This document shows, in pieces, positions 7,283 to 41,345 of a stretch of DNA of 50,739 nucleotides (its first letter is position 1; each line of letters opens with the position of its first letter). This stretch comes from Nitrosospira sp. (GTDB lineage: Bacteria > Pseudomonadota > Gammaproteobacteria > Burkholderiales > Nitrosomonadaceae), in the NCBI GenBank assembly GCA_013450215.1, contig JACDSH010000012.1:1-50739 (forward strand), written 5' to 3'. A program made the position numbers and the translations under genes. The notes beneath the pieces are model-generated. The model had not been told where the DNA came from, did no database searches, and worked only from the letters and a program-made list of their open reading frames with translations.

Positions 7283-8437
7283 TTAAAGGGTCCGGCCATA
7301 GATGCGGTATCGCTTATACTGCCTGCTCCCAATGAGATCAAGGATACCGCGCATCGGCTTATTATTCTCGAGTATCCACGACATCTCAACCTCACGGATC
7401 CCCGCAGAGAGCGTTGACTTCCGGGGCCCATCGATCACCATAAAGGCCAGAGCCATTCCGAGGGGGGTATTCTGAAACTGCTTACGTACTCCCATCAACG
7501 GGATCCGACCGGTACGGGCTGAGTGGCCTCTGTACCACCTGATCAAACGGATCCAGCCGAATGGAAATAAACTCCCATCAAGCTTAGAAAGGATCTCATT
7601 CAGATTAGGTAGCCCCACCATAAATGCCGCAGGGATGCCATCGACCTCTGCAATCTGGATAAAGCCCTCCGGCACGAGCAGTCGCAGGCTATTACCCAGC
7701 TCTGCGAACTCTGCCTCGGTGAAAGGGATAAAACCCCAATTCTCTGACCAAGCATCGTTAAAGAGATCACGCAGAACCTCCATCTCAGCGCTAAATTGAT
7801 CCATGCGCAGATTCCTGAGATGTATCCGTTTAGAAAATTTGTTGATCAGTGCTCGCATCACACGCGGCACCTCGAAGTCCACATCAACCCAGTAGGCGAG
7901 TAGGTCCTTGACCGTTTGGTAGCCTCGTTCTTCGAGTAATCGTCCGTACCATCTCGGCGAGTGAGGCATCATCACCGCCGGCGGAGTGTCGAATCCATCC
8001 ACCAAGATGCCGCACTCCTGATTAATGGATAGACTGAATGGTCCACTGACATGCTTGGTATCCCGAGCGACCAGCCATTCCTCGGCGGTCTGTATCAGTG
8101 CCGCACATACCTCGCTATCGTCCACACACTCGAACGACCCAAAGTGCCCGGTATCTGCTCCGTGGTGTTGCCGGTGAATCCGATCAATCTGTGCACTGAT
8201 CCTTCCCACCGGTTGATTATCCCGATAGGCGATCCATGCCTGCCATTCTCCATGCTTAAAGAATGAGTTAAATCGGGAAAAATGAAACCTCCGTTCGATG
8301 CGTAGAGGCGGAACCCACATGGGGTCATCTGCATAGACATGCCAAGGAAGATTGATGAATCTTCCCATCTCGCGGTAGTTGGTGACCGGGCGCACAGTCA
8401 AGACTGAGGACGTTAATTGACTGGACTTCTCATTCAT
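7283..8437 (-). CDS. YghO/bCerS-like GNAT-fold N-acyltransferase, candidate ceramide synthase
   Basis: A 384-aa protein of the large GNAT-related family that includes E. coli YghO and, as I recall, the bacterial ceramide synthase bCerS of Caulobacter. Diagnostic stretches are the N-terminal DDPMWVPPLRIERR, then FKHGEWQAWIAY, VGRISAQIDR, GHFGSFECVDD, GPFSLSINQECGILVDGFD and MMPHSPRWY, with a C-terminal GNAT-like half containing FIQIAEVDGIPAAFMVGLPN. No signal peptide or membrane segment is evident. The family transfers acyl groups to amines. It is the first gene of the minus-strand lipid locus, 44 bp ahead of the NTP transferase. The ceramide-synthase reading depends on context (lipid kinase, Tam41-like protein, LptF/G) and not on a catalytic test. 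Confidence 0.75.
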   Translation of the reverse strand: MNEKSSQLTSSVLTVRPVTNYREMGRFINLPWHVYADDPMWVPPLRIERRFHFSRFNSFFKHGEWQAWIAYRDNQPVGRISAQIDRIHRQHHGADTGHFGSFECVDDSEVCAALIQTAEEWLVARDTKHVSGPFSLSINQECGILVDGFDTPPAVMMPHSPRWYGRLLEERGYQTVKDLLAYWVDVDFEVPRVMRALINKFSKRIHLRNLRMDQFSAEMEVLRDLFNDAWSENWGFIPFTEAEFAELGNSLRLLVPEGFIQIAEVDGIPAAFMVGLPNLNEILSKLDGSLFPFGWIRLIRWYRGHSARTGRIPLMGVRKQFQNTPLGMALAFMVIDGPRKSTLSAGIREVEMSWILENNKPMRGILDLIGSRQYKRYRIYGRTL

Positions 8438-13097: not shown

Positions 13098-14036
13098 ATG
13101 AAGATCATTTTTGCTGGAACTCCGGTATTCGCCGCGCATGCACTTGAAGCGCTGCTGAAGGCTGGGCACGAGATCGCGATGGTGCTGACCCAACCTGATC
13201 GTCCTGCCGGGCGAGGAATGCAGGTCACATCAAGCGCAGTTAAGAGACTGGCACAACAGCACGAACTCCCCCTGTTGCAACCCCACTCACTCAAGCAATC
13301 TGAGATCGATTCTCAACTCACTTCGATCAATGCTGATGTGATGGTGGTTGCCGCTTATGGATTGATACTCCCTAAATCCATCCTGAACATTCCCCGCTTG
13401 GGATGTCTCAATATCCATGCCTCACTACTGCCTCGCTGGCGTGGCGCAGCACCGATACAAAGATCAATCCTAGCGGGTGACTGCGCAACCGGGATTACCA
13501 TTATGCAGATGGATCAGGGTCTCGATACCGGCCCCATGCTGCTTCAGAAAAGTATCCCCATCGCAGCAGATGATACCTCTCAGACCCTACACGACAAGCT
13601 CGCTTTAATGGGGGGGCGCTGCATCGTGGAAGCTCTGTCACTTCTGCAGCAAGGAAGGCTCTCCGCCACCGTTCAGGATGAAACGTTGGCCAGTTACGCA
13701 TCCAAACTAGCGAAGAGCGAATCCAAAATCGACTGGCAGCTAGATGCAGAGCAAATCAACCAGGCCGTCCGCGCATTTAACCCGCACCCCGGCGCACACT
13801 CCCTCATCCATGCAACCCCTCTTAAAATATGGCAGGCCGAGGTGGGGGTAAGTAGTCCCGGCAATCCTGGAGAAGTTATCTCAACCGAACGAGAAGGTAT
13901 CGCGGTGGTATGCGGGAAGAACTCTCTGGTACTGAAAGTGATACAAAAATCGGGCGGGAAAAAAATGAATGTGGGCGAGTTTCTCACAGGCAGTCGATTA
14001 CGGCCTGGTGATCGCTTCGAATACCTAGATGATTAA
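13098..14036 (+). CDS. fmt: Methionyl-tRNA formyltransferase
   Basis: A 312-aa enzyme that formylates Met-tRNA(fMet) using 10-formyltetrahydrofolate. The N-terminal formyltransferase domain begins MKIIFAGTPVFAAHALEAL. It has the catalytic Asn and His in LNIHASLLPRWRG, the signature RGAAPIQRSILAGD, and the catalytic Asp in MDQGLDTGPML. The C-terminal tRNA-binding domain follows from about residue 205, with AFNPHPGA. Length matches the family. It overlaps rsmB by 8 bp, so the two are likely translated together. Confidence 0.96.
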   Translation: MKIIFAGTPVFAAHALEALLKAGHEIAMVLTQPDRPAGRGMQVTSSAVKRLAQQHELPLLQPHSLKQSEIDSQLTSINADVMVVAAYGLILPKSILNIPRLGCLNIHASLLPRWRGAAPIQRSILAGDCATGITIMQMDQGLDTGPMLLQKSIPIAADDTSQTLHDKLALMGGRCIVEALSLLQQGRLSATVQDETLASYASKLAKSESKIDWQLDAEQINQAVRAFNPHPGAHSLIHATPLKIWQAEVGVSSPGNPGEVISTEREGIAVVCGKNSLVLKVIQKSGGKKMNVGEFLTGSRLRPGDRFEYLDD

Positions 14037-15315
14037 AACTCAGCACCTGTCTACCTTGGTCGTGAGCAAGGTGCTGGATGGTGCAAGCCTGACTACAGTG
14101 CTGCAGGAGACTTGGCGAGATCATCCCTCTCTTTCCGGTCAACAGCGCGGAGCGATTCAGGACATAAGTTACGGGACCTTGAGATTCTATGGTCAACTGG
14201 ATGCATTGCTCGGACTCCTCGTGAAAAAACCGCTACAGCACCAAGATCTTCGGTGTCTGTTACTGGTCGGCTTGTATCAACTGCAATATAGCAAGTCCTC
14301 CCCTCATGCAGTGGTGGACCATGCCGTATCTGCATCTTCTGGCCTGGGGGGCAGCAAACATAATAAAGGAGCCCCTGGGCTGGTCAATGCAGTATTGCGC
14401 AACTTCATGCGGCAACGCGCGACTCTACTGGCACAAGCGATCAAGAGCGATGTCGGTCGGCATTCCCACCCTCAGTGGTGGATAGACAGGATACGCGAGC
14501 AATATCCAAACGATTATCAGGCGATACTAGAAGCTGGGAATCAACATCCTCCCATGACGCTGAGGGTCAACCGTCGCAAGTTAAAGGTAGCGGATTACCA
14601 GAAACAGCTCCAAGAATGCGGCATGACCGCACATTCCCTATGGGACGATGCTCTCATCCTTGCGCAACCGGTTGGAGTGGAAAGGTTACCAGGATTTAGC
14701 TCAGGACTTGTGTCGGTGCAGGATGCGGGTGCACAACTGGCAGCGCCACTCCTTGACGTACGTGATGGAATGCGTGTACTAGACGCCTGCTCTGCCCCTG
14801 GGGGTAAGACGGCACATCTATTGGAACTTGCGGACGTGGAACTGACCGCGATCGACCATGATGACGTCAGGCTCTCTCGAGTGGCACAAAACCTCACACG
14901 TCTCGAACTCAAGGCTCACCGTCTTATCTGCGCTGATGCAGCCCAGCCGATAGAGTGGTGGGATGATAAGCCCTTTGATCGTATCCTGGCCGATGTACCC
15001 TGCTCCGCCTCGGGAGTGACACGACGTCACCCCGATATTAAATGGCTACGACGCGAGACTGATCTCCCTCACTTTGCTGCCAACCAACAGAAAATACTTG
15101 ATGCCTTATGGCAGACCCTGGCTAGAGATGGTAAATTGCTCTATGCCACTTGCTCGGTATTCGTCGAAGAGAACAAGCTGCAGGTGACAAAATTTTTGAG
15201 TCATCATCCAGATGCACGTCCGTTACCGCTCTCCAGAATGGAAGCGCTTGATGGTCAACTGTTGCCGGGCCCCCAGCATGACGGTTTCTTCTATACCCTG
15301 TTGCACAAGTCCTGA
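14029..15315 (+). CDS. rsmB: 16S rRNA m5C967 methyltransferase RsmB
   Basis: A 428-aa SAM-dependent RNA cytosine-5 methyltransferase (RsmB/Sun). An N-terminal NusB-like RNA-binding domain (about residues 1-140, with GAPGLVNAVLRN) precedes the catalytic Rossmann domain. That domain has motif I, VLDACSAPGGKTAHLLEL, motif IV with ADVPCSASGV, and motif VI with ATCSVF carrying the nucleophilic Cys. The enzyme methylates C967 of 16S rRNA. The ATG lies inside the end of fmt (8-bp overlap). The downstream DUF4390 gene starts about 13 bp after its stop. Confidence 0.95.
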   Translation: MIKTQHLSTLVVSKVLDGASLTTVLQETWRDHPSLSGQQRGAIQDISYGTLRFYGQLDALLGLLVKKPLQHQDLRCLLLVGLYQLQYSKSSPHAVVDHAVSASSGLGGSKHNKGAPGLVNAVLRNFMRQRATLLAQAIKSDVGRHSHPQWWIDRIREQYPNDYQAILEAGNQHPPMTLRVNRRKLKVADYQKQLQECGMTAHSLWDDALILAQPVGVERLPGFSSGLVSVQDAGAQLAAPLLDVRDGMRVLDACSAPGGKTAHLLELADVELTAIDHDDVRLSRVAQNLTRLELKAHRLICADAAQPIEWWDDKPFDRILADVPCSASGVTRRHPDIKWLRRETDLPHFAANQQKILDALWQTLARDGKLLYATCSVFVEENKLQVTKFLSHHPDARPLPLSRMEALDGQLLPGPQHDGFFYTLLHKS

Positions 15316-15328
15316 CCTCATCGCACGG

Positions 15329-15910
15329 TTGTTGCGCGTATCCGCGATCTTGGTGCTGGCTGCAGGCTTCTTACTATCTGGTAGCGTTCATGCAGAAAAT
15401 ATACGAATAAAGTCCGTCGCGCTGGATGCGGCGGATGAGGGTTATCAGTTCAACGCAGATGTTGAGATTACACTCAACCCCATTCTAGAGCGGTCACTTG
15501 GGAAGGGGATCGTTCTGTACTTTGTGAGCGAACTCACCCTCCTGGGTCCACGTTGGTACTGGCTCGACGAGAAGGTTGCCCGTAGCAAACAGAGAGAGGC
15601 ATTAAGCTACTACGCGCTCACACGTCAATACCGCTTGAGCCGGGGATCATTGTCACAGAACTTCAGCACTCTGAAGGAAGCTCTACAGGTTTTGGGAAGG
15701 CTACGTAACCACCCCATTGTCGCAAACTCCGAGCTCAATCAGAATGTTGAGTATATTGCAGAGCTAAGGGTGTGGCTTGACCTGTCCCGCTTACCCAAGC
15801 CATTCCAAGTAGAAGCAATTAGCTCGAAGGAATGGAATCTAAGCTCCGACACGTTGCAATGGAGTGTAAAACTCCCCCCTCAGAAAACACATCACGGAAC
15901 CCGGCCGTGA
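15329..15910 (+). CDS. DUF4390 domain protein, secreted
   Basis: An exported protein of about 193 aa with the DUF4390 pattern: NADVEITLNPILERSLGKGI, then PRWYWLDEK and YYALTRQYRLS. I chose the TTG at 15329 because it gives a compact signal peptide, LLRVSAILVLAAGFLLSGSVHA, cleaved before ENIR. The longest frame starts at 15212 and would overlap rsmB by about 100 bp. There is no strong ribosome-binding site at the TTG, so 15332 or coupling to rsmB are alternatives. The function of DUF4390 is unknown. It sits consistently between rsmB and an NtrY-type kinase in Betaproteobacteria, which suggests a periplasmic role linked to that sensor. Its stop overlaps the likely kinase start (GTGA). Confidence 0.8.
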   Translation: MLRVSAILVLAAGFLLSGSVHAENIRIKSVALDAADEGYQFNADVEITLNPILERSLGKGIVLYFVSELTLLGPRWYWLDEKVARSKQREALSYYALTRQYRLSRGSLSQNFSTLKEALQVLGRLRNHPIVANSELNQNVEYIAELRVWLDLSRLPKPFQVEAISSKEWNLSSDTLQWSVKLPPQKTHHGTRP

Positions 15911-18078
15911 AGTATCTCATCATTATTGGCTCAGGACTGGGTGCGGTGATGTTGCTCCTGCTTGCAACCGCAGGTGCCAATGCCGGATTCCTTGAACGCC
16001 GCTATCAACTCTTAATCGCGCTCAACGTCGGGTTTGTGTTGCTTCTGATGGTGGTGGTCGGTTATCTGCTATGGCGATTCAGACGCAGACTCAAGGACGG
16101 CGTATTTGGCTCCAAATTGGCTCTGCGACTGTTACTTATCTTCTCTTTGATGGCAACCCTTCCTGGCGTTCTGGTGTATAGCGTATCGGTACAGTTCCTG
16201 GGGAAGAGTATCGAGTCCTGGTTTGATATCAAGGTAGACCGGGCACTGGAAGGCGGTCTGAATCTTGGACGCTCGATGCTAGATGATCTAATGGACGAGT
16301 TACGCGAAAAGACTCAATCCATGGCGATTACTCTGTCCAAGGAAACCACCCCGTCACCAGCAATACTAGCCCAGTTGGTTGACCACTCAAGGATGCAGAA
16401 GGCTACGCTATTTAATCAAGGGGGTGGAGTGGTCGCATTCTCTGGAGCGGAGATTGCAAGTCTAGTTGTAAGAGTGCCGAATGAGGAGGAAATAAATCAT
16501 GCTAGGATTCAAGGAGTCTATAGTAAGATCGATTCCATACCCGACAAGGGACTGTATTTATGGGCGGTAGCACTTGTCAATGGACAGCGACCGGGGGAAG
16601 TCGATCGGATACTGCAGTTACTGCAGCCCGTCCCGAAAAGTCTGGCGGATGATGCCGAGATTGTGCAGGCGGTATACCGCGACTATCAGGCACTATCATT
16701 ATCGCGTCAGGGTATGAAGGAGCTCTACGCGGTGACTCTAACACTGGCGCTATTGCTCTCTCTTCTTTCTGCAATAGCTGCTGCCTTTCTGATCAGCGAG
16801 CGACTGAGCGCACCCCTGGGTATGCTGGCTGAAGGTACTCATGCCGTTTCCAAAGGGGATTTCAGTAGACGTCATCCGGTGCAGAGTAAAGATGAGCTAG
16901 GGGTGTTGACCGAGTCATTCAACCTCATGACTCAGCAACTGGAAGAGGCTCGTATAGTGACCCAACGCAATCAGCACGAGGTAGAGAGTGCCAGGGCCTA
17001 CCTGGAGAGCATACTGTCCAACCTTTCATCCGGCGTTCTCGTATTTGATGAGGAGCTGCGACTACGTACTACGAATCTTAGCGCGGAACAAATTCTAAAG
17101 ATCCCCCTCACCCATCTTGAGGGTCTGACCATGGAAGAGTGCGTGGCAAAAGCCCCTCAACTGCATTCTCTCGAATCAACAATCTTAAGAGAGCTCCATT
17201 CAGAGAGGGCGGGGGAGTGGCAATGTCAAGTGGAACGCTCGGTCGATGAAGGCAATCAGGTACTGCTGCTGCGAGGGTCTCGTCTGCCCCAAGACTCTGG
17301 TGGTGGTGGCGTCGTAGTCTTTGATGACATCACCAACCTGTTGCAGGCACAACGCACTGCAGCATGGGGGGAAGTGGCTCGACGCCTGGCTCATGAAATC
17401 AAGAACCCCCTCACTCCGATCCAACTCTCTGCAGAGCGTATGCAACATAAGCTTGCGGAGAAGTTAGGTGGGCAGGATGCAGAGATACTACAGCGCTCGA
17501 CCGAAATTATCGTCAACCAGGTTGATGCTCTAAAGAGAATGGTCAACGAGTTCAGCGAGTATGCCAGAGCACCTAAATTGGAGTTACACCTACTGGACAT
17601 TAATAAACTGGTTGAGGAAGTGCTGGCACTATATGAGCGCACAAATGAAGGTGTGGAGGGTGAACTGGCCCCTCACATCGAACTGCTGCTCAACTCCAAC
17701 CTTCCTCTGGTAAGGGGTGACTCAGCACGGTTGCGACAGGTGATCCACAACCTACTACAAAATGCTCAAGACACACTGACAGGCACCACGGAACCCACCA
17801 TCACAGTCCGCACCGAAGTATTGCAGGGCTCGGTAAGTCTCAGTGTAAGCGACAATGGGGGTGGCTTCCCAGATGAGGTCAGAGCGCGTGCATTTGAACC
17901 CTATGTCACCACCAAGCCCAAGGGCACCGGACTCGGCCTGCCTATTGTCAAGAAGATCGTCGAAGAACACAATGGCACGATACAAATCGAAAACATTCTT
18001 CCGCACGGGGCACGTATCTCCATCACCCTGCCCATGACGGCGGAAAGCATTACAGCTGCCAAGACCGAGACCGTGTGA
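15907..18078 (+). CDS. ntrY: NtrY-family sensor histidine kinase
   Basis: A membrane sensor kinase of about 723 aa. Predicted helices lie near residues 2-22, 33-57, 72-96 and 270-295, enclosing a periplasmic region. HAMP follows (about 295-350, ending KDELGVLTESFNLM), then PAS (about 365-460), then the kinase core. The phospho-acceptor is His496 in RLAHEIKNPLTP; the N box is VIHNLLQNAQD, G1 is SDNGGGF and G2 is KGTGLGLPIVKK. The GTG at 15907 overlaps the DUF4390 stop and starts just before the first helix. In-frame ATGs at 15832 and 15859 would add hydrophilic residues. It is the cognate partner of the regulator 65 bp downstream. The signal is unknown; NtrY homologues are linked to nitrogen, redox or envelope control. 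Confidence 0.9.
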   Translation: MKYLIIIGSGLGAVMLLLLATAGANAGFLERRYQLLIALNVGFVLLLMVVVGYLLWRFRRRLKDGVFGSKLALRLLLIFSLMATLPGVLVYSVSVQFLGKSIESWFDIKVDRALEGGLNLGRSMLDDLMDELREKTQSMAITLSKETTPSPAILAQLVDHSRMQKATLFNQGGGVVAFSGAEIASLVVRVPNEEEINHARIQGVYSKIDSIPDKGLYLWAVALVNGQRPGEVDRILQLLQPVPKSLADDAEIVQAVYRDYQALSLSRQGMKELYAVTLTLALLLSLLSAIAAAFLISERLSAPLGMLAEGTHAVSKGDFSRRHPVQSKDELGVLTESFNLMTQQLEEARIVTQRNQHEVESARAYLESILSNLSSGVLVFDEELRLRTTNLSAEQILKIPLTHLEGLTMEECVAKAPQLHSLESTILRELHSERAGEWQCQVERSVDEGNQVLLLRGSRLPQDSGGGGVVVFDDITNLLQAQRTAAWGEVARRLAHEIKNPLTPIQLSAERMQHKLAEKLGGQDAEILQRSTEIIVNQVDALKRMVNEFSEYARAPKLELHLLDINKLVEEVLALYERTNEGVEGELAPHIELLLNSNLPLVRGDSARLRQVIHNLLQNAQDTLTGTTEPTITVRTEVLQGSVSLSVSDNGGGFPDEVRARAFEPYVTTKPKGTGLGLPIVKKIVEEHNGTIQIENILPHGARISITLPMTAESITAAKTETV

Positions 18079-18143: not shown

Positions 18144-19394
18144 ATGACCAACAATACAATACTTGTAGTTGATGATGAGATCGGCATACGTGAGTTGCTA
18201 TCTGAAATCTTGCATGACGAAGGTTACCAAGTGGCACTGGCAGAGAATGCCGAGCAAGCTCGAAACTGGCGTAGCCAAAACCTTCCAGATCTAGTGCTGC
18301 TCGATATCTGGATGCCCGACACTGATGGGATTACTCTCCTGAAAGAGTGGTCTGGAAGTGGGCTACTCACCATGCCGGTGGTGGTGATGTCTGGACATGG
18401 AACTATCGAAACTGCGGTCGAAGCAACGCGTATTGGCGCGTTCGGTTATCTGGAAAAGCCGATACCCCTACAAAAGCTTTTGAGTACGGTCGGTCGCGCG
18501 CTCCGCGGTGGGCAGGTCAAACCATACTCCACACTCTCTCTTAACAACCTGGGCAAGGGGTCGATGATCACCAATCTAAAAGCCCACTTAGAACAGGTCA
18601 TTCACCTTAAGGCTCCGCTGCTACTCACTGGCGAACCTGGAACCGGGATGAGGCTATGTGCTCGATTCCTGCACCGCCCGAATACACCCTGGGTGGAACC
18701 GGAGACACTCACGTCTCTTGCAGACTCCCCGCTCGCGATGTTGGAGCAAGCTCAAGGTGGTTTATTGTTTCTCAACGAGATTGGCAAGATCAGTCGACTG
18801 GAGCAGAGGGGCCTACTGCTCCTGCTAGGAAAACTCGAAAAATACAACGTTCGACTGGTGTGCGCCACCTCACTACCACTATCTGATCTAACAGCAAAGG
18901 GCGAGTATGACTCTAGACTGTATGAGATTCTGAACAGTCTCTGCATTAATGTCCCCGCCCTAAAAACACATCGGGAGAACATTCCTGAGCTTGCTAGTCA
19001 GATGCTTTCTAGCAGCATTGAATCCGGGGAAGCGCCCCCGCGAAAATTCACTACTGCTGCACTAAATGCGTTACGCAACTATGACTGGCCCGGCAACCTC
19101 TCGCAATTAACCGGTGTCGTTCGATCATTGGCACTAACCGGCACTAGTGATGAAATTTCAGTCGATGACGTGACGCGGGCACTGTCCTCTTCGATGTCGG
19201 CACAGAAAGTTTCAAACGTGCCGCTTAATATTCCCCTGCGAGAGGCGCGTGACTTATTCGAAAAGCAATACTTTGATCGGCTCATCGAGCAGGAAAGCGG
19301 CAACATGACACGGGTGGCTGAACAATCAGGGCTGGAACGAACGCATCTTTATAGAAAACTCAAACTATTAGGTGTCAAACTACGAAATCAATAA
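18144..19394 (+). CDS. ntrX: NtrX-family response regulator with degenerate AAA+ domain
   Basis: A 416-aa response regulator. The receiver domain (1-120) has acidic DDE near residue 10, phospho-acceptor Asp54 in LLDIWMPDTDG and Lys105. The central AAA+ domain is reduced and altered. Walker A reads GEPGTGMR, so the catalytic Lys is Met169. Walker B reads LLFLNEIG, with Asn211 for Asp. The region that should hold the sigma-54-contacting GAFTGA loop is missing, with only about 40 residues between Walker A and B. The Fis-type helix-turn-helix is intact at the C-terminus (MTRVAEQSGLERTHLYRKL). It therefore probably binds DNA under NtrY control but cannot hydrolyse ATP or activate sigma-54 RNA polymerase. 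ATG at 18144; the pair looks like an operon. Confidence 0.9.
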   Translation: MTNNTILVVDDEIGIRELLSEILHDEGYQVALAENAEQARNWRSQNLPDLVLLDIWMPDTDGITLLKEWSGSGLLTMPVVVMSGHGTIETAVEATRIGAFGYLEKPIPLQKLLSTVGRALRGGQVKPYSTLSLNNLGKGSMITNLKAHLEQVIHLKAPLLLTGEPGTGMRLCARFLHRPNTPWVEPETLTSLADSPLAMLEQAQGGLLFLNEIGKISRLEQRGLLLLLGKLEKYNVRLVCATSLPLSDLTAKGEYDSRLYEILNSLCINVPALKTHRENIPELASQMLSSSIESGEAPPRKFTTAALNALRNYDWPGNLSQLTGVVRSLALTGTSDEISVDDVTRALSSSMSAQKVSNVPLNIPLREARDLFEKQYFDRLIEQESGNMTRVAEQSGLERTHLYRKLKLLGVKLRNQ

Positions 19395-34511: not shown

Positions 34512-35963
34512 TTGAAGATTATTATTCTGGGCGCAGGACGGGTCGGCACATCGGTTGCGGAGAGTTTGGTGAGCGAGGCCAACGATATCACCATGGTCGA
34601 CCTCGACTCGGATCGACTGCACCTGCTGCAAGACCATCTTGACCTGCGAACGGTGGTAGGGAATGCCTCTCACCCATCTGTCATGATACGGGCCGGCGCC
34701 GAGGATGCAGATATGATCCTTGCTGTGACTCAGAGTGACGAGACTAATCTGGTGGCATGTAAGCTCGCTGCCACCATGTTTAACACCCCGACCAAGATCG
34801 CACGTATTCACTCGGCCAATTTTCTGGCCTATCCAGAAATTTTTTCTGCAGATAATTTCTGTGTTGACTTTGTCATTTGCCCGGAAAAGATCCTGACCGA
34901 GTACATCGAGAAACTGATTGAGTTTCCGGAGGCATTGCAGGTACTTGATTTCGCTAATGGCAAGGTGAGCCTAGTCGCGGTCCGTGCTTTTCACGGGGGT
35001 CCTTTGGTCGGGCGTGAGTTACAGGAACTCCGCCAGCATGTGCCCAATGTCGACACACGTGTGGCCGCAATCTTCCGCAAGGACCGGCCCATCATCCCCG
35101 AAGGCGATACCGTGATCGAGGCTGAGGATGAGGTATTTTTTATTGCTCCCGAGAAAGACATACGTGCCGTGATGAGAGAGATGCGGAGAATGGACAAGCC
35201 AGTCGAGCGCGTAATGATTGCTGGTGGTGGAAATATTGGAAAGCGCCTCGCCAAAGCTCTCGAAAAAGACCATCAGGTAAAGATCATTGAGTACGACAAG
35301 CGCGCAAGCGAACGATTGGCAGCTGATCTGGATCATGCCCTAGTGCTGCATGGAGATGCCACAGACGAGGATCTACTGGAGAGTGAGAATATCGCAGAGA
35401 TGGATATGTTCTGCGCTCTCACCAATGATGACGAGAATAACATCATGTCAGCGCTGCTGGCTAAGCGTATGGGTGCTCGCAAGGTGATCGCACTCATCAA
35501 CCGCAGCGCCTATGTGGATCTGGTGCAAAGTGGCAGTATTGATATCGCCATCTCCCCTGCGCAGGTCACCATCGGTTCCCTTCTCACGCATATCCGTCGC
35601 GGGGATGTGGCGGCGGTGCATAGCCTTCGTCGTGGTGCAGCAGAGGCATTAGAACTTGTCGTACACGGTGACGCCCGATCGTCCAATGTAGTGGGTCGCA
35701 AAGTGGCGGATATCAAGCTACCTAAAGGTGCCAGCATCGGGGCCATCGTTCGCGGTCTGCCGACAACAGAAGGCAGAGACCCGGGAGAAGATGATGGAAA
35801 AAAGAAGGCGAGAGGCGCTTCATCCAATCCGGATGCGCAGGTATTAATCGCTCATCATGACACTGTGATTGAGACAGGGGACCATGTCATTTTATTCGTG
35901 ATCAATAAGAAGTTGATCCACCAGGTAGAGGAGTTGTTTCAGGTCGGTGTTGGATTCCTGTAA
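34512..35963 (+). CDS. trkA: Trk potassium uptake regulatory NAD-binding protein TrkA
   Basis: A 483-aa cytoplasmic regulatory subunit with two tandem RCK units. The first Rossmann fold is MKIIILGAGRVGTSVAESL. The start codon is TTG at 34512, with GAGG upstream. The second fold has MIAGGGNIGKRLAKALE near residue 236. Each RCK_N domain is followed by an RCK_C domain. It binds NAD(H) and controls the TrkH channel. The second RCK_C contains an extra charged stretch, GRDPGEDDGKKKARG, near residue 422, which makes the protein longer than E. coli TrkA (458 aa). It lies 12 bp before trkH. Confidence 0.95.
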   Translation: MKIIILGAGRVGTSVAESLVSEANDITMVDLDSDRLHLLQDHLDLRTVVGNASHPSVMIRAGAEDADMILAVTQSDETNLVACKLAATMFNTPTKIARIHSANFLAYPEIFSADNFCVDFVICPEKILTEYIEKLIEFPEALQVLDFANGKVSLVAVRAFHGGPLVGRELQELRQHVPNVDTRVAAIFRKDRPIIPEGDTVIEAEDEVFFIAPEKDIRAVMREMRRMDKPVERVMIAGGGNIGKRLAKALEKDHQVKIIEYDKRASERLAADLDHALVLHGDATDEDLLESENIAEMDMFCALTNDDENNIMSALLAKRMGARKVIALINRSAYVDLVQSGSIDIAISPAQVTIGSLLTHIRRGDVAAVHSLRRGAAEALELVVHGDARSSNVVGRKVADIKLPKGASIGAIVRGLPTTEGRDPGEDDGKKKARGASSNPDAQVLIAHHDTVIETGDHVILFVINKKLIHQVEELFQVGVGFL

Positions 35964-35975
35964 ACGGAACCCTCG

Positions 35976-37433
35976 ATGAACCGACTCTTCGCCGTCACCA
36001 ATGTACTGGGCATGGTGGTCATGATATTTGGCCTCACCATGCTGCCTCCCCTTGCACTCTCCTTCTGGACGGATGACTCGGCTCTATTCGCCTACCACCA
36101 GTCGTTCGTTATCACTTTATTCTGTGGGTTAGTGATGACCATGGCAACACGCTGGTACCGGCGGGAGCTTCAGGTACGCGATGGTTTCTTACTGGTGGTA
36201 CTGGTCTGGTCGGTGTTGCCGATATTTGCCACCCTCCCGTTCATGTTCTTCATGCCTCAACTCAGTTTCGCGGATGCCTATTTCGAAGCCGCGTCTGGCA
36301 TCACCACCACCGGCGCTACAATCCTCTCTAGTCTGGATAGCCTACCTCCCTCAATCAATCTGTGGCGGTGCGAGCTACAGTGGTTGGGCGGTATGGGGCT
36401 GATCGTCCTAGCGGTTGCGATTCTGCCGCTACTCGGTGTGGGTGGACGGCAGATGTTCAAGGCCGAGACACCCGGCCCTATGAAGGACACCAAGCTGACC
36501 CCCCGCATCGCCGAGACTGCCAAGGCTCTATGGTTAATCTATGCAGGATTGACCCTGTCTTGCATCATCGCTTACCGACTGGCCGGTATGGACTGGATCG
36601 ATGCGGTGATGCATGCATTCACCACCTTAAGTCTGGGTGGAGTCTCCTCGCATGATGCAAGCTTCGGTTACTGGGATTCGGCTTTGATAGAGTGCGTCGC
36701 GATCTTCTTCATGCTGGTTGCAGGGCTTAATTTTGCGTCTCACTTCTTAGTGTGGCGAGCGAAAAGCTTTCTCCCCTACCGCAATGACCCAGAGGCCGGG
36801 ATGTTCATCATGATCACAGCGGCAAGCTGTATCGGTCTCACGTTCTATCTCTGGCTCATGGAGGTATACCCCGACCCATTAACGGCACTACGCTTTGCCA
36901 GCTTCAATACAGTCTCAATCGCGACCTCCACCGGATATTCCAGCACGGATTACTATCTGTGGCCGATCTTTGCGCCATTGTGGATGCTCTTCCTCTCCAG
37001 CTTTTGCTCATCATCAGGATCCACGGGTGGTGGCATTAAGATGATCCGTGCCCAGATTCTATTCAAGCAAGTATTCCGCGAGATGATCTTGATCATGCAT
37101 CCCCAAGCGATCTCCCCCGTGAAGGTTGGCGGTAGCGTAGTGCCAAACCGTATCGTTTTTGCAGTATTGGCCTTCCTATCGATCTACATCGCTAGTATCG
37201 CTTCAATGACCCTGATCTTGACACTGAGTGGGCTGGACTTAGTGACAGCACTGTCCGCGATCGTGGCATGTATCAACAACCTAGGGCCCGGTTTTAGTCA
37301 GGTTGGTCCCGCAACTACATTTTCGGTCCTTACTGACTTTCAGATCTGGGTCTGCAGTTTTGCTATGTTATTGGGTCGGCTGGAGCTTTTTACGTTATTG
37401 ATTGTATTCACCCCCGCATTCTGGAGAAAATAA
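35976..37433 (+). CDS. trkH: Trk potassium uptake channel protein TrkH
   Basis: A 485-aa membrane protein of the TrkH/TrkG family with four pore-loop repeats. Visible selectivity-type segments are ASGITTTGATIL near residue 107, FTTLSLGGVSSHDAS near 217, ASTGYSSTDYY near 316 and the fourth around NNLGPGFSQVG near 430. LSSFCSSSGSTGGGIKM is also typical. It forms the K+-conducting subunit that TrkA gates. The gene follows trkA by 12 bp, consistent with an operon, and the ATG has GGAA a few bases upstream. Confidence 0.95.
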   Translation: MNRLFAVTNVLGMVVMIFGLTMLPPLALSFWTDDSALFAYHQSFVITLFCGLVMTMATRWYRRELQVRDGFLLVVLVWSVLPIFATLPFMFFMPQLSFADAYFEAASGITTTGATILSSLDSLPPSINLWRCELQWLGGMGLIVLAVAILPLLGVGGRQMFKAETPGPMKDTKLTPRIAETAKALWLIYAGLTLSCIIAYRLAGMDWIDAVMHAFTTLSLGGVSSHDASFGYWDSALIECVAIFFMLVAGLNFASHFLVWRAKSFLPYRNDPEAGMFIMITAASCIGLTFYLWLMEVYPDPLTALRFASFNTVSIATSTGYSSTDYYLWPIFAPLWMLFLSSFCSSSGSTGGGIKMIRAQILFKQVFREMILIMHPQAISPVKVGGSVVPNRIVFAVLAFLSIYIASIASMTLILTLSGLDLVTALSAIVACINNLGPGFSQVGPATTFSVLTDFQIWVCSFAMLLGRLELFTLLIVFTPAFWRK

Positions 37434-39801: not shown

Positions 39802-41241
39802 TCAGTACCGGTACATTTCCGGCTTGTATGGGCCGTCTTTATCCAGGCTGAGGTACTTCGCCTGCTCTTCGGTCAACTCGGTCAGCCTGACACCCAGCTT
39901 CTTGATATGAAGCCTGGCCACCTTTTCATCGAGTTGCTTGGGCAGCACATAAACATTCTTCTGGTACTTTGCGTTGTTCTGCCAAAGCTCCATCTGAGCC
40001 AGCACTTGATTGGTAAATGAACTGGACATAACAAATGATGGGTGTCCGGTTGCACAACCCAGATTAACCAGTCTGCCCTGAGCCAACACAATGATGCGTC
40101 GACCCGTTGGGAAGATGACATGATCCACCTGAGGCTTGATATTCTCCCAGCGATACTTCTGCACCGAAGCGATATCTATTTCAGAATCGAAGTGACCGAT
40201 ATTGCAGACGATGGCCTGGTTCTTCATCTTAAGCATATGGTCATGGGTGATGACACGCAGATTGCCGGTCGCGGTGACAAAAATATCAGCCTGGTCACAT
40301 GCCTCGTCCATGGTGACAACACGATAACCCTCCATCGCTGCCTGTAGCGCGCAGATCGGATCTATCTCAGTAATCCATACCGTCGCACCCAGACCGCGCA
40401 GTGATTGAGCACATCCCTTGCCCACATCCCCGTATCCGCAAACGATGGCCACTTTCCCAGCAATCATCACGTCAGTGGCCCGCTTGATACCATCCACCAA
40501 GGACTCACGACATCCGTAGAGATTGTCAAACTTTGACTTGGTGACCGAGTCGTTCACATTAAAAGCAGGAAATGGAAGCTCGCCTTTTTTCTGCATCTCG
40601 TACAGACGGTGCACGCCGGTAGTGGTTTCTTCTGTCACACCCCGAATATTGGCAAGGATGTTGGAGTACCATCCCGGATGACTGGCCACCCTCTTCTTAA
40701 TGGCCGCGTAAAGGGCCTGCTCTTCTTCGTTGGTTGGATTGGCGATGACGGATAGGTCCTTCTCAGCCTTGCTGCCGAGTATGATCAGCAGTGTGGCATC
40801 ACCCCCATCATCCAGAATCATGTTCGGTGTTTTATGCGCACCCGACTCTTGACCCGGCCACTCAAAGATACGGTGGGTATACTCCCAGTAGTCATCCAGT
40901 GATTCGCCCTTATAGGCAAATACCGGAATACTCGCCGCAGCGATAGCCGCTGCCGCATGGTCCTGGGTAGAATAGATATTACAAGAGGCCCAGCGTACTT
41001 CTGCACCCAGCTTGACCAGGGTCTCGATCAGTACCGCTGTCTGGATGGTCATGTGCAGAGATCCTGCAACACGTGCCCCGGCCAGAGGCTTCTGGTCAGC
41101 GTATTCTTCGCATAGCGCCATCAAACCCGGCATCTCGGTTTCGGCGATAGCAATCTCCTTACGTCCCCATCCAGCAAGGGACATATCTGCAACTTTATAA
41201 TCGGTGAATTGGACGCCAGATGAATTGGACGCAACGCTCAT
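39802..41241 (-). CDS. ahcY: Adenosylhomocysteinase (S-adenosylhomocysteine hydrolase)
   Basis: A 479-aa NAD-dependent enzyme that cleaves S-adenosylhomocysteine to adenosine and homocysteine. It has [32 protein letters not shown] with catalytic Lys and Asp, the NAD-binding [17 protein letters not shown], and the C-terminal [13 protein letters not shown]. The length includes the insertion typical of bacterial and plant enzymes. The ATG at 41241 follows AGGAG. The 5' leader is an SAH riboswitch, so expression should rise when S-adenosylhomocysteine accumulates. It lies between metK and metF. Confidence 0.97.
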
Positions 41242-41259
41242 GGAATAATCTCCTGAAAA

Positions 41260-41345
41260 TGAACGAGCGCCGTTGTTACGGTATCCTCCTTCGCCGAGCC
41301 TCGCGGGACTGTGCCCGTTGCAGCGCTCCTCAGCGTGGAGGGTAG
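41260..41345 (-). promoter_or_regulatory. S-adenosylhomocysteine (SAH) riboswitch upstream of ahcY
   Basis: Read on the minus strand, the leader contains GAGGAGCGCTGCAACGGG, then AGGCTCGG, then CAACGGCGCTCG, which match the core of the SAH riboswitch as I know it. The outer stem pairs CTGAG with CTCGG. An inner stem is CGGG with CCCG. The pseudoknot pairs GAGCGC (41323-41328) with GCGCTC (41265-41270). The element ends about 19 bases before the ahcY ATG and its AGGAG. Characterised members turn on ahcY when SAH binds. Confidence 0.92.

Follow-up and report, generated by a model that had tools for sequence, protein, structure and literature searches.

The window, that is, the whole 50,739-nucleotide stretch of Nitrosospira sp. 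DNA analysed here, encodes an NtrX-like response regulator and the sensor kinase NtrY (Table 1). Upstream of ntrX and on the same strand lie def, fmt (named by eye), rsmB, a DUF4390 gene and ntrY. The order rsmB, DUF4390 gene, sensor and regulator matches that of the betaproteobacterial NtrX/PlrR branch as set out in the accessible text of PMC13001219. The HEIKN motif of NtrY starts at residue 521 (nucleotide 17392), and HEIKN sensors are described in the same text as both kinases and phosphatases (PMC13001219). Homologues of trkA and trkH are found at 34512-37433, ca. 15 kb past the 3' end of ntrX. According to the accessible text, the trkAH genes of Bordetella lie directly 3' of the ntrYX homologues (PMC13001219). 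The window also holds a SAH riboswitch (RF01057, 60.9 bits; 41258-41337, minus strand) just 5' of the S-adenosylhomocysteine hydrolase gene (39802-41241), and two long minus-strand open reading frames with no Pfam match at 1e-5 (2023-2991, 322 amino acids; 7283-8437, 384 amino acids).

Table 1. Features of the ntrYX locus, in window coordinates.
Feature	Position	Strand	Evidence
rsmB, conserved neighbour	14029..15315	+	NCBIfam RsmB above cut-off
DUF4390 gene, plrP family homologue	15212..15910	+	PF14334, 164.9 bits; true start probably downstream of ORF start
ntrY sensor histidine kinase	15832..18078	+	NtrY_N, HAMP, PAS, HisKA, HATPase_c
ntrX-like response regulator	18144..19394	+	ORF of 416 amino acids
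Receiver domain, residues 4-121	18153..18506	+	Pfam Response_reg, 98.3 bits
Asp54, predicted phosphorylation site	18303..18305	+	D in 132/132 beta, 60/60 outgroup and 7/7 AAA+-less relatives
Shortened AAA+ domain and lid, residues 133-356	18540..19211	+	PF14532, PF25601; predicted fold similar to sigma-54 activator AAA+ domains
Degenerate Walker A, GEPGTGMR, Lys replaced by Met169	18630..18653	+	Residue position and alignment
Shortened stretch at the site of the activators' loop 1 with GAFTGA	18660..18746	+	Walker A-to-B spacing 30-32 vs 50-54
Degenerate Walker B, Asp replaced by Asn211	18756..18785	+	Residue position and alignment
Arginine-finger position, Asp256	18909..18911	+	R in 60/60 outgroup, 0/132 beta
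Sensor II position, Ser320	19101..19103	+	R in 56/60 outgroup, 1/132 beta
Pre-HTH helix and Fis-type HTH, residues 366-416	19239..19391	+	HTH_8; 14/51 columns invariant

The ntrX product matches Response_reg (98.3 bits), Sigma54_activ_2 (PF14532, 145.1 bits), AAA_lid_14 (52.7 bits) and HTH_8 (27.9 bits), all above cut-off. Its best NCBIfam model is NtrX (NF051870) at 267.7 bits, under the curated cut-off of 600 bits, a score reached by none of the 143 genomes in the class sample. The closest relatives with a genus name come from Nitrosospira and Nitrosomonas (70-76% identity), and one Nitrosomonadales MAG encodes a protein of 83% identity; judged by these relatives, the organism belongs to the family Nitrosomonadaceae. 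An initial annotation, made from the DNA letters, had read the protein as an NtrX-type regulator with Met in Walker A, Asn in Walker B, an intact receiver Asp and an intact Fis-type DNA-binding end. A position check on the 416-residue frame bears this out: Walker A reads GEPGTGMR and Walker B LFLNEIG, residues 54, 169 and 211 are Asp, Met and Asn, and the HTH scores above cut-off.

Sites with the published alphaproteobacterial NtrX consensus GCA-N9-TGC (PMC7240162) occur in the window at chance level (17 found, 17.3 expected, for a consensus that is alphaproteobacterial). Upstream of mraZ, one of 29 regions of 300 bp holds such a site, against a mean of 1.18 in shuffles that preserved base composition only; 30 loci had been tried, one of which had no open reading frame, and the predicted starts at L305, L308 and L309 are unlike MraZ starts. 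A conserved dcw target of NtrX is thus unsupported, the consensus being at chance upstream of mraZ.

Catalytic residues and domain loss among relatives

The protein was compared with 132 betaproteobacterial sequences that have an AAA+ domain. Genomes of the order supplied 52 of them and named betaproteobacterial loci 80; because both sets share some genomes, 127 of the sequences are distinct. The outgroup of 60 NtrX took in the 30 top scorers of the alphaproteobacterial search and the 30 of the gammaproteobacterial one, and is thus no random sample. Left out of the residue counts were G005, truncated at a contig end and in agreement in its visible part, and G007, a genome 89% complete with a best match of only 2.8e-20.

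The Walker A Lys is found in none of the 132 betaproteobacterial orthologues and in all 60 outgroup NtrX. Since it is missing from 52/52 short forms of the order and from 80/80 named loci, its loss is neither chance nor an assembly slip. The arginine-finger column (256) holds Arg in 60/60 outgroup and 0/132 betaproteobacterial sequences, the sensor II column (320) in 56/60 and 1/132, respectively, and the Walker B Asp is kept in 30/30 alpha, 15/30 gamma and 5/132 beta sequences. Where sigma-54 enhancer-binding proteins have the Walker A Lys, the Walker B Asp and the arginine finger, the window protein therefore has Met169, Asn211 and Asp256. The shortening of the AAA+ domain, also part of the initial annotation, is equally evident: the Walker A-to-B stretch, which is the loop 1 region, measures 30-32 residues in the 132 betaproteobacterial sequences versus 50-54 in the outgroup, and the loop 2 stretch 21 versus 31. 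The comparison with betaproteobacterial orthologues that the annotation had proposed thus finds the losses lineage-wide. Its implied picture of a special protein was too narrow, as this form is the usual one in the lineage.

The missing GAFTGA loop needs a different reading. The motif is indeed absent from the window protein, as had been claimed; it is, however, not a loss of this gene, since a GAFTGA-like motif is found in 0/30 alpha, 0/30 gamma and 0/132 beta NtrX, and its lack therefore predates the gene. As judged from these alignments, all NtrX sampled share the absence of GAFTGA, gamma NtrX already show an eroded Walker B, and what marks the betaproteobacterial branch is that it has lost the Lys, the arginine finger and both loops. 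A quick tree built from receiver and HTH places the betaproteobacterial NtrX, the window protein among them, on one branch (79 rows, SH-aLRT 98).

Two observations concern other members of the family. The gamma NtrX (L254-L283) all keep the Walker A Lys (30/30), but 15/30 have another residue for the Walker B Asp, which may represent an earlier phase of this decay. G058, a genome of the order, encodes a second, longer NtrX-like protein (L064, G058:C29:89250-94596), counted separately as G058b. Its loop spacing is full-length, but Arg stands at the Walker A Lys position and Lys at that of the Walker B Asp.

Some relatives have no AAA+ domain at all. It is wholly absent in 7 of 61 genomes, which come from 7 of the 25 families sampled, and the seven proteins, 211-264 residues long, consist of receiver, linker, conserved helix and HTH. 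All seven adjoin ntrY. Among the same 61 genomes no NtrX was found in one, the incomplete G007. The best NtrX matches in 250 genomes of the order fall into two classes with a gap between them, 175 at 2.7e-82 or below and 68 at 1.1e-56 to 8.7e-33, and 7 genomes have no match at 1e-30; these classes were tallied by hand from a table, and only the seven AAA+-less proteins were checked as sequences. The quick tree needs four changes among the 79 betaproteobacterial rows to account for the loss of the domain. When the seven AAA+-less rows were forced into one group, the likelihood rose (p-AU 0.68), so that a single origin is not rejected and several independent losses cannot be claimed.

Sigma-54 and the retention of NtrX

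The genome of the window (1.6 Mb, 99.8% complete) carries rpoN only as a pseudogene, at G000:C4:69539-70172 (L009, minus strand), between lptB and hpf. Set against G004, a close relative whose rpoN is an intact open frame of 503 codons, it has lost codons ~26-256 and 316-345, a TAA stop lies inside the middle piece, and the frame is broken near codon 429; with several separate lesions, an assembly error is unlikely. No second sigma-54 match was found anywhere in this genome, nor a full sigma-54-activator domain, the best family match having E=1e-6. With only a pseudogene for rpoN and no full activator domain, the window NtrX can hardly act via sigma-54 in this organism, and ntrYX has been kept despite the wrecked rpoN.

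Full sigma-54 matches are present in 54 of 60 relatives. The six genomes with no sigma-54 match (G011, G017, G020, G026, G029 and G032) belong to another genus of the family, and all six have NtrX; in the four with an lptB match (G011, G017, G020 and G032), hpf follows lptB within ~190-260 bp. G026 (79% complete) and G032 (8% contamination) retain full activator domains despite having no sigma-54 match, which runs against a simple story.

Across the order, the sigma-54 core-binding domain has no match in 18 of 250 genomes, and the window's genome has only the remnant; these 19 genomes without intact sigma-54 span nine families. NtrX matches at E<=1e-30 are found in 17 of the 19 and in 226 of the 231 others, so retention of NtrX depends little on sigma-54. 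The two of the 19 without such a match are G359 and G401, from a family in which four other genomes have an NtrX match only at ~1e-33; G469 (91% complete) and G555 (86% complete) may reflect assembly gaps.

Constraint, fold and mode of action

Among the 52 short forms, 47/118 columns of the receiver, 14/51 of the HTH and 4/224 of the AAA+ domain are invariant. The ratio of AAA+ to receiver mean identity is 0.58 in beta, 0.87 in alpha and 0.81 in gamma sequences. The proposal that the losses hit the ATPase and sigma-54 functions and spare sensing and DNA binding fits this pattern: conservation is highest in receiver and HTH, and the losses extend to the arginine finger and the sensor II Arg. 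The AAA+ domain is nevertheless not free to drift, since its dN/dS of 0.03-0.29 (12 pairs) indicates purifying selection, and it may have a function. Ten residues of the region are invariant in 43 sequences; one is Gln and the other nine are Gly, Pro, Leu, Ala or Trp, so that they reveal no conserved polar site. The predicted structure of the window protein (mean pLDDT 84.6) keeps the AAA+ fold (against 1ny6, Z 22.9, rmsd 2.0 over 214 residues) and also resembles VpsR, FleQ and other NtrC-like proteins, while a pTM of 0.54 makes the arrangement of the domains unsure.

We conclude, with a probability of about 0.85, that the window protein is the NtrX of the betaproteobacterial rsmB-DUF4390(plrP)-ntrY-ntrX cluster and would act as a phospho-switched DNA binder with a dead AAA+ domain and a sigma-70-type output. 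NtrY would phosphorylate and dephosphorylate Asp54, as its HEIKN motif suggests, and the DUF4390 protein probably tunes this control, as proposed for Bordetella. Phosphorylated NtrX would then bind DNA through its Fis-type HTH and activate or repress promoters of the sigma-70-type polymerase. The AAA+ domain, presumably devoid of working ATPase and unable to engage sigma-54, would still fold and serve most likely as a spacer or dimer scaffold. Such output needs no AAA+ domain, as shown by the receiver-plus-HTH relatives and the PlrR genetics published in PMC13001219, of which the accessible text was used. For this organism, the missing ATPase residues, the shortened loops, the rpoN pseudogene and the receiver-HTH relatives thus support the initial suggestion of a phosphorylation-controlled DNA-binding protein working without sigma-54.

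VpsR and FleQ use the NtrC-like fold outside the classical sigma-54 mechanism, and both bind c-di-GMP. The AAA+ domain of NtrX could likewise have acquired a new, non-ATPase job: it might bind a ligand, either a nucleotide or, like FleQ and VpsR, c-di-GMP, or else contact RNA polymerase, and thereby gate the HTH. Purifying selection on the domain, the retained fold with its likeness to these proteins, and the many genomes that keep the domain when others manage without it are all compatible with this alternative, which we nonetheless consider unlikely. The ten invariant residues include no conserved polar site, and some families have dropped the domain altogether. LFRS is the FleQ element tied to c-di-GMP binding; no LFRS-like element was seen by eye in the window protein, in which no c-di-GMP site was recognised.

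Could ntrX instead be a decaying remnant with little function left? The genome is small and reduced, the AAA+ domain is diverging, and sigma-54 and its activators have been lost. Against this, the frame is open, dN/dS relative to G004 is 0.195 overall, 0.12 in the receiver and 0.04 in the HTH, and 225 of the order's 229 good-quality genomes keep an NtrX match. Furthermore, the accessible texts list ntrX as putatively essential in Azoarcus olearius (PMC9769520) and as candidate essential in Herbaspirillum seropedicae (PMC5086560), two other Betaproteobacteria in which the form of NtrX may differ. Decay is therefore very improbable. Least credible of all is that NtrX still works with sigma-54 by joining other activators in mixed rings: such partners exist elsewhere, given the 54 relatives with full sigma-54 matches, but both loop regions are shortened, and for the window's genome we reject a retained link in view of the rpoN pseudogene and the lack of any other full activator domain.

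Returning to NtrX as a phospho-switched DNA binder, we tentatively propose a wider scenario, possible though rather less than even in our estimation. NtrX may show, among present-day lineages, how an ATP-driven enhancer-binding protein turns step by step into an ordinary phospho-switched regulator: GAFTGA is absent from every NtrX sampled, the ATPase residues and both sigma-54 loops went next, in Betaproteobacteria, and certain families finally dropped the entire domain. Midway through, the dead AAA+ domain might have taken on a new role, e.g. as a platform for phosphorylation-gated dimerisation or for contact with the polymerase, and remained under selection for that role even after the loss of sigma-54. 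Because sigma-54-less genomes retain NtrX, they offer a natural experiment on an enhancer-binding activator changing its mode of action. In this lineage, annotating these genes as nitrogen regulators that depend on sigma-54 misleads.

Comparison with known regulators

The Brucella abortus NtrX (PDB 5m7n, 5m7o, 5m7p) resembles the window protein in having receiver, AAA+ and HTH domains and no GAFTGA, and the model aligns with 5m7p_B over residues 2-411 at 36% identity. In contrast to the window protein, it retains the Walker A Lys, the Walker B Asp and full-length loops. A closer match to the shortened AAA+ core is PDB 3co5, a fragment of a putative two-component response regulator, which likewise has no Walker A Lys and aligns gap-free across the shortened AAA+ part; unlike the window protein, it is a 143-residue domain alone. 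We take this fragment to be from Neisseria. The PDB matches to VpsR and FleQ reflect the NtrC-like fold that these proteins have in common with the window protein.

The Caulobacter NtrX also has no GAFTGA, and NtrC proteins without GAFTGA are reported, in the accessible text, to be active at sigma-70 promoters (PMC10274813). The latter, from Caulobacter and Rhodobacter capsulatus, are the NtrC-class regulators to which the window NtrX may be likened in its output. They differ from it in needing ATP binding, and in Caulobacter also ATP hydrolysis (PMC10274813), whereas the window NtrX has no ATPase residues.

The best parallel is PlrR of Bordetella, an NtrX family member that consists of a receiver and a DNA-binding domain, and whose phosphorylated form is essential in vitro according to the accessible text of PMC13001219. 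PlrR and the window NtrX share the order rsmB-plrP(DUF4390)-sensor-regulator, the receiver Asp, the C-terminal DNA-binding domain and a HEIKN sensor; PlrR is without an AAA+ domain, whereas the window protein retains a dead one between receiver and DNA-binding domain. The literature search, to which subscription papers were mostly closed, returned no description of such an intermediate. An NtrX without GAFTGA, and PlrR as a receiver plus a DNA-binding domain, are already in print; new here are the decay in stages and an intermediate whose AAA+ domain is dead and which outlived sigma-54. The statement in the accessible text of PMC13001219 that betaproteobacterial NtrX are without an AAA+ domain seems too general, a shortened, dead AAA+ domain being present here and in the 132 aligned betaproteobacterial sequences, and our analysis refines it: many betaproteobacterial NtrX keep a dead AAA+ domain.
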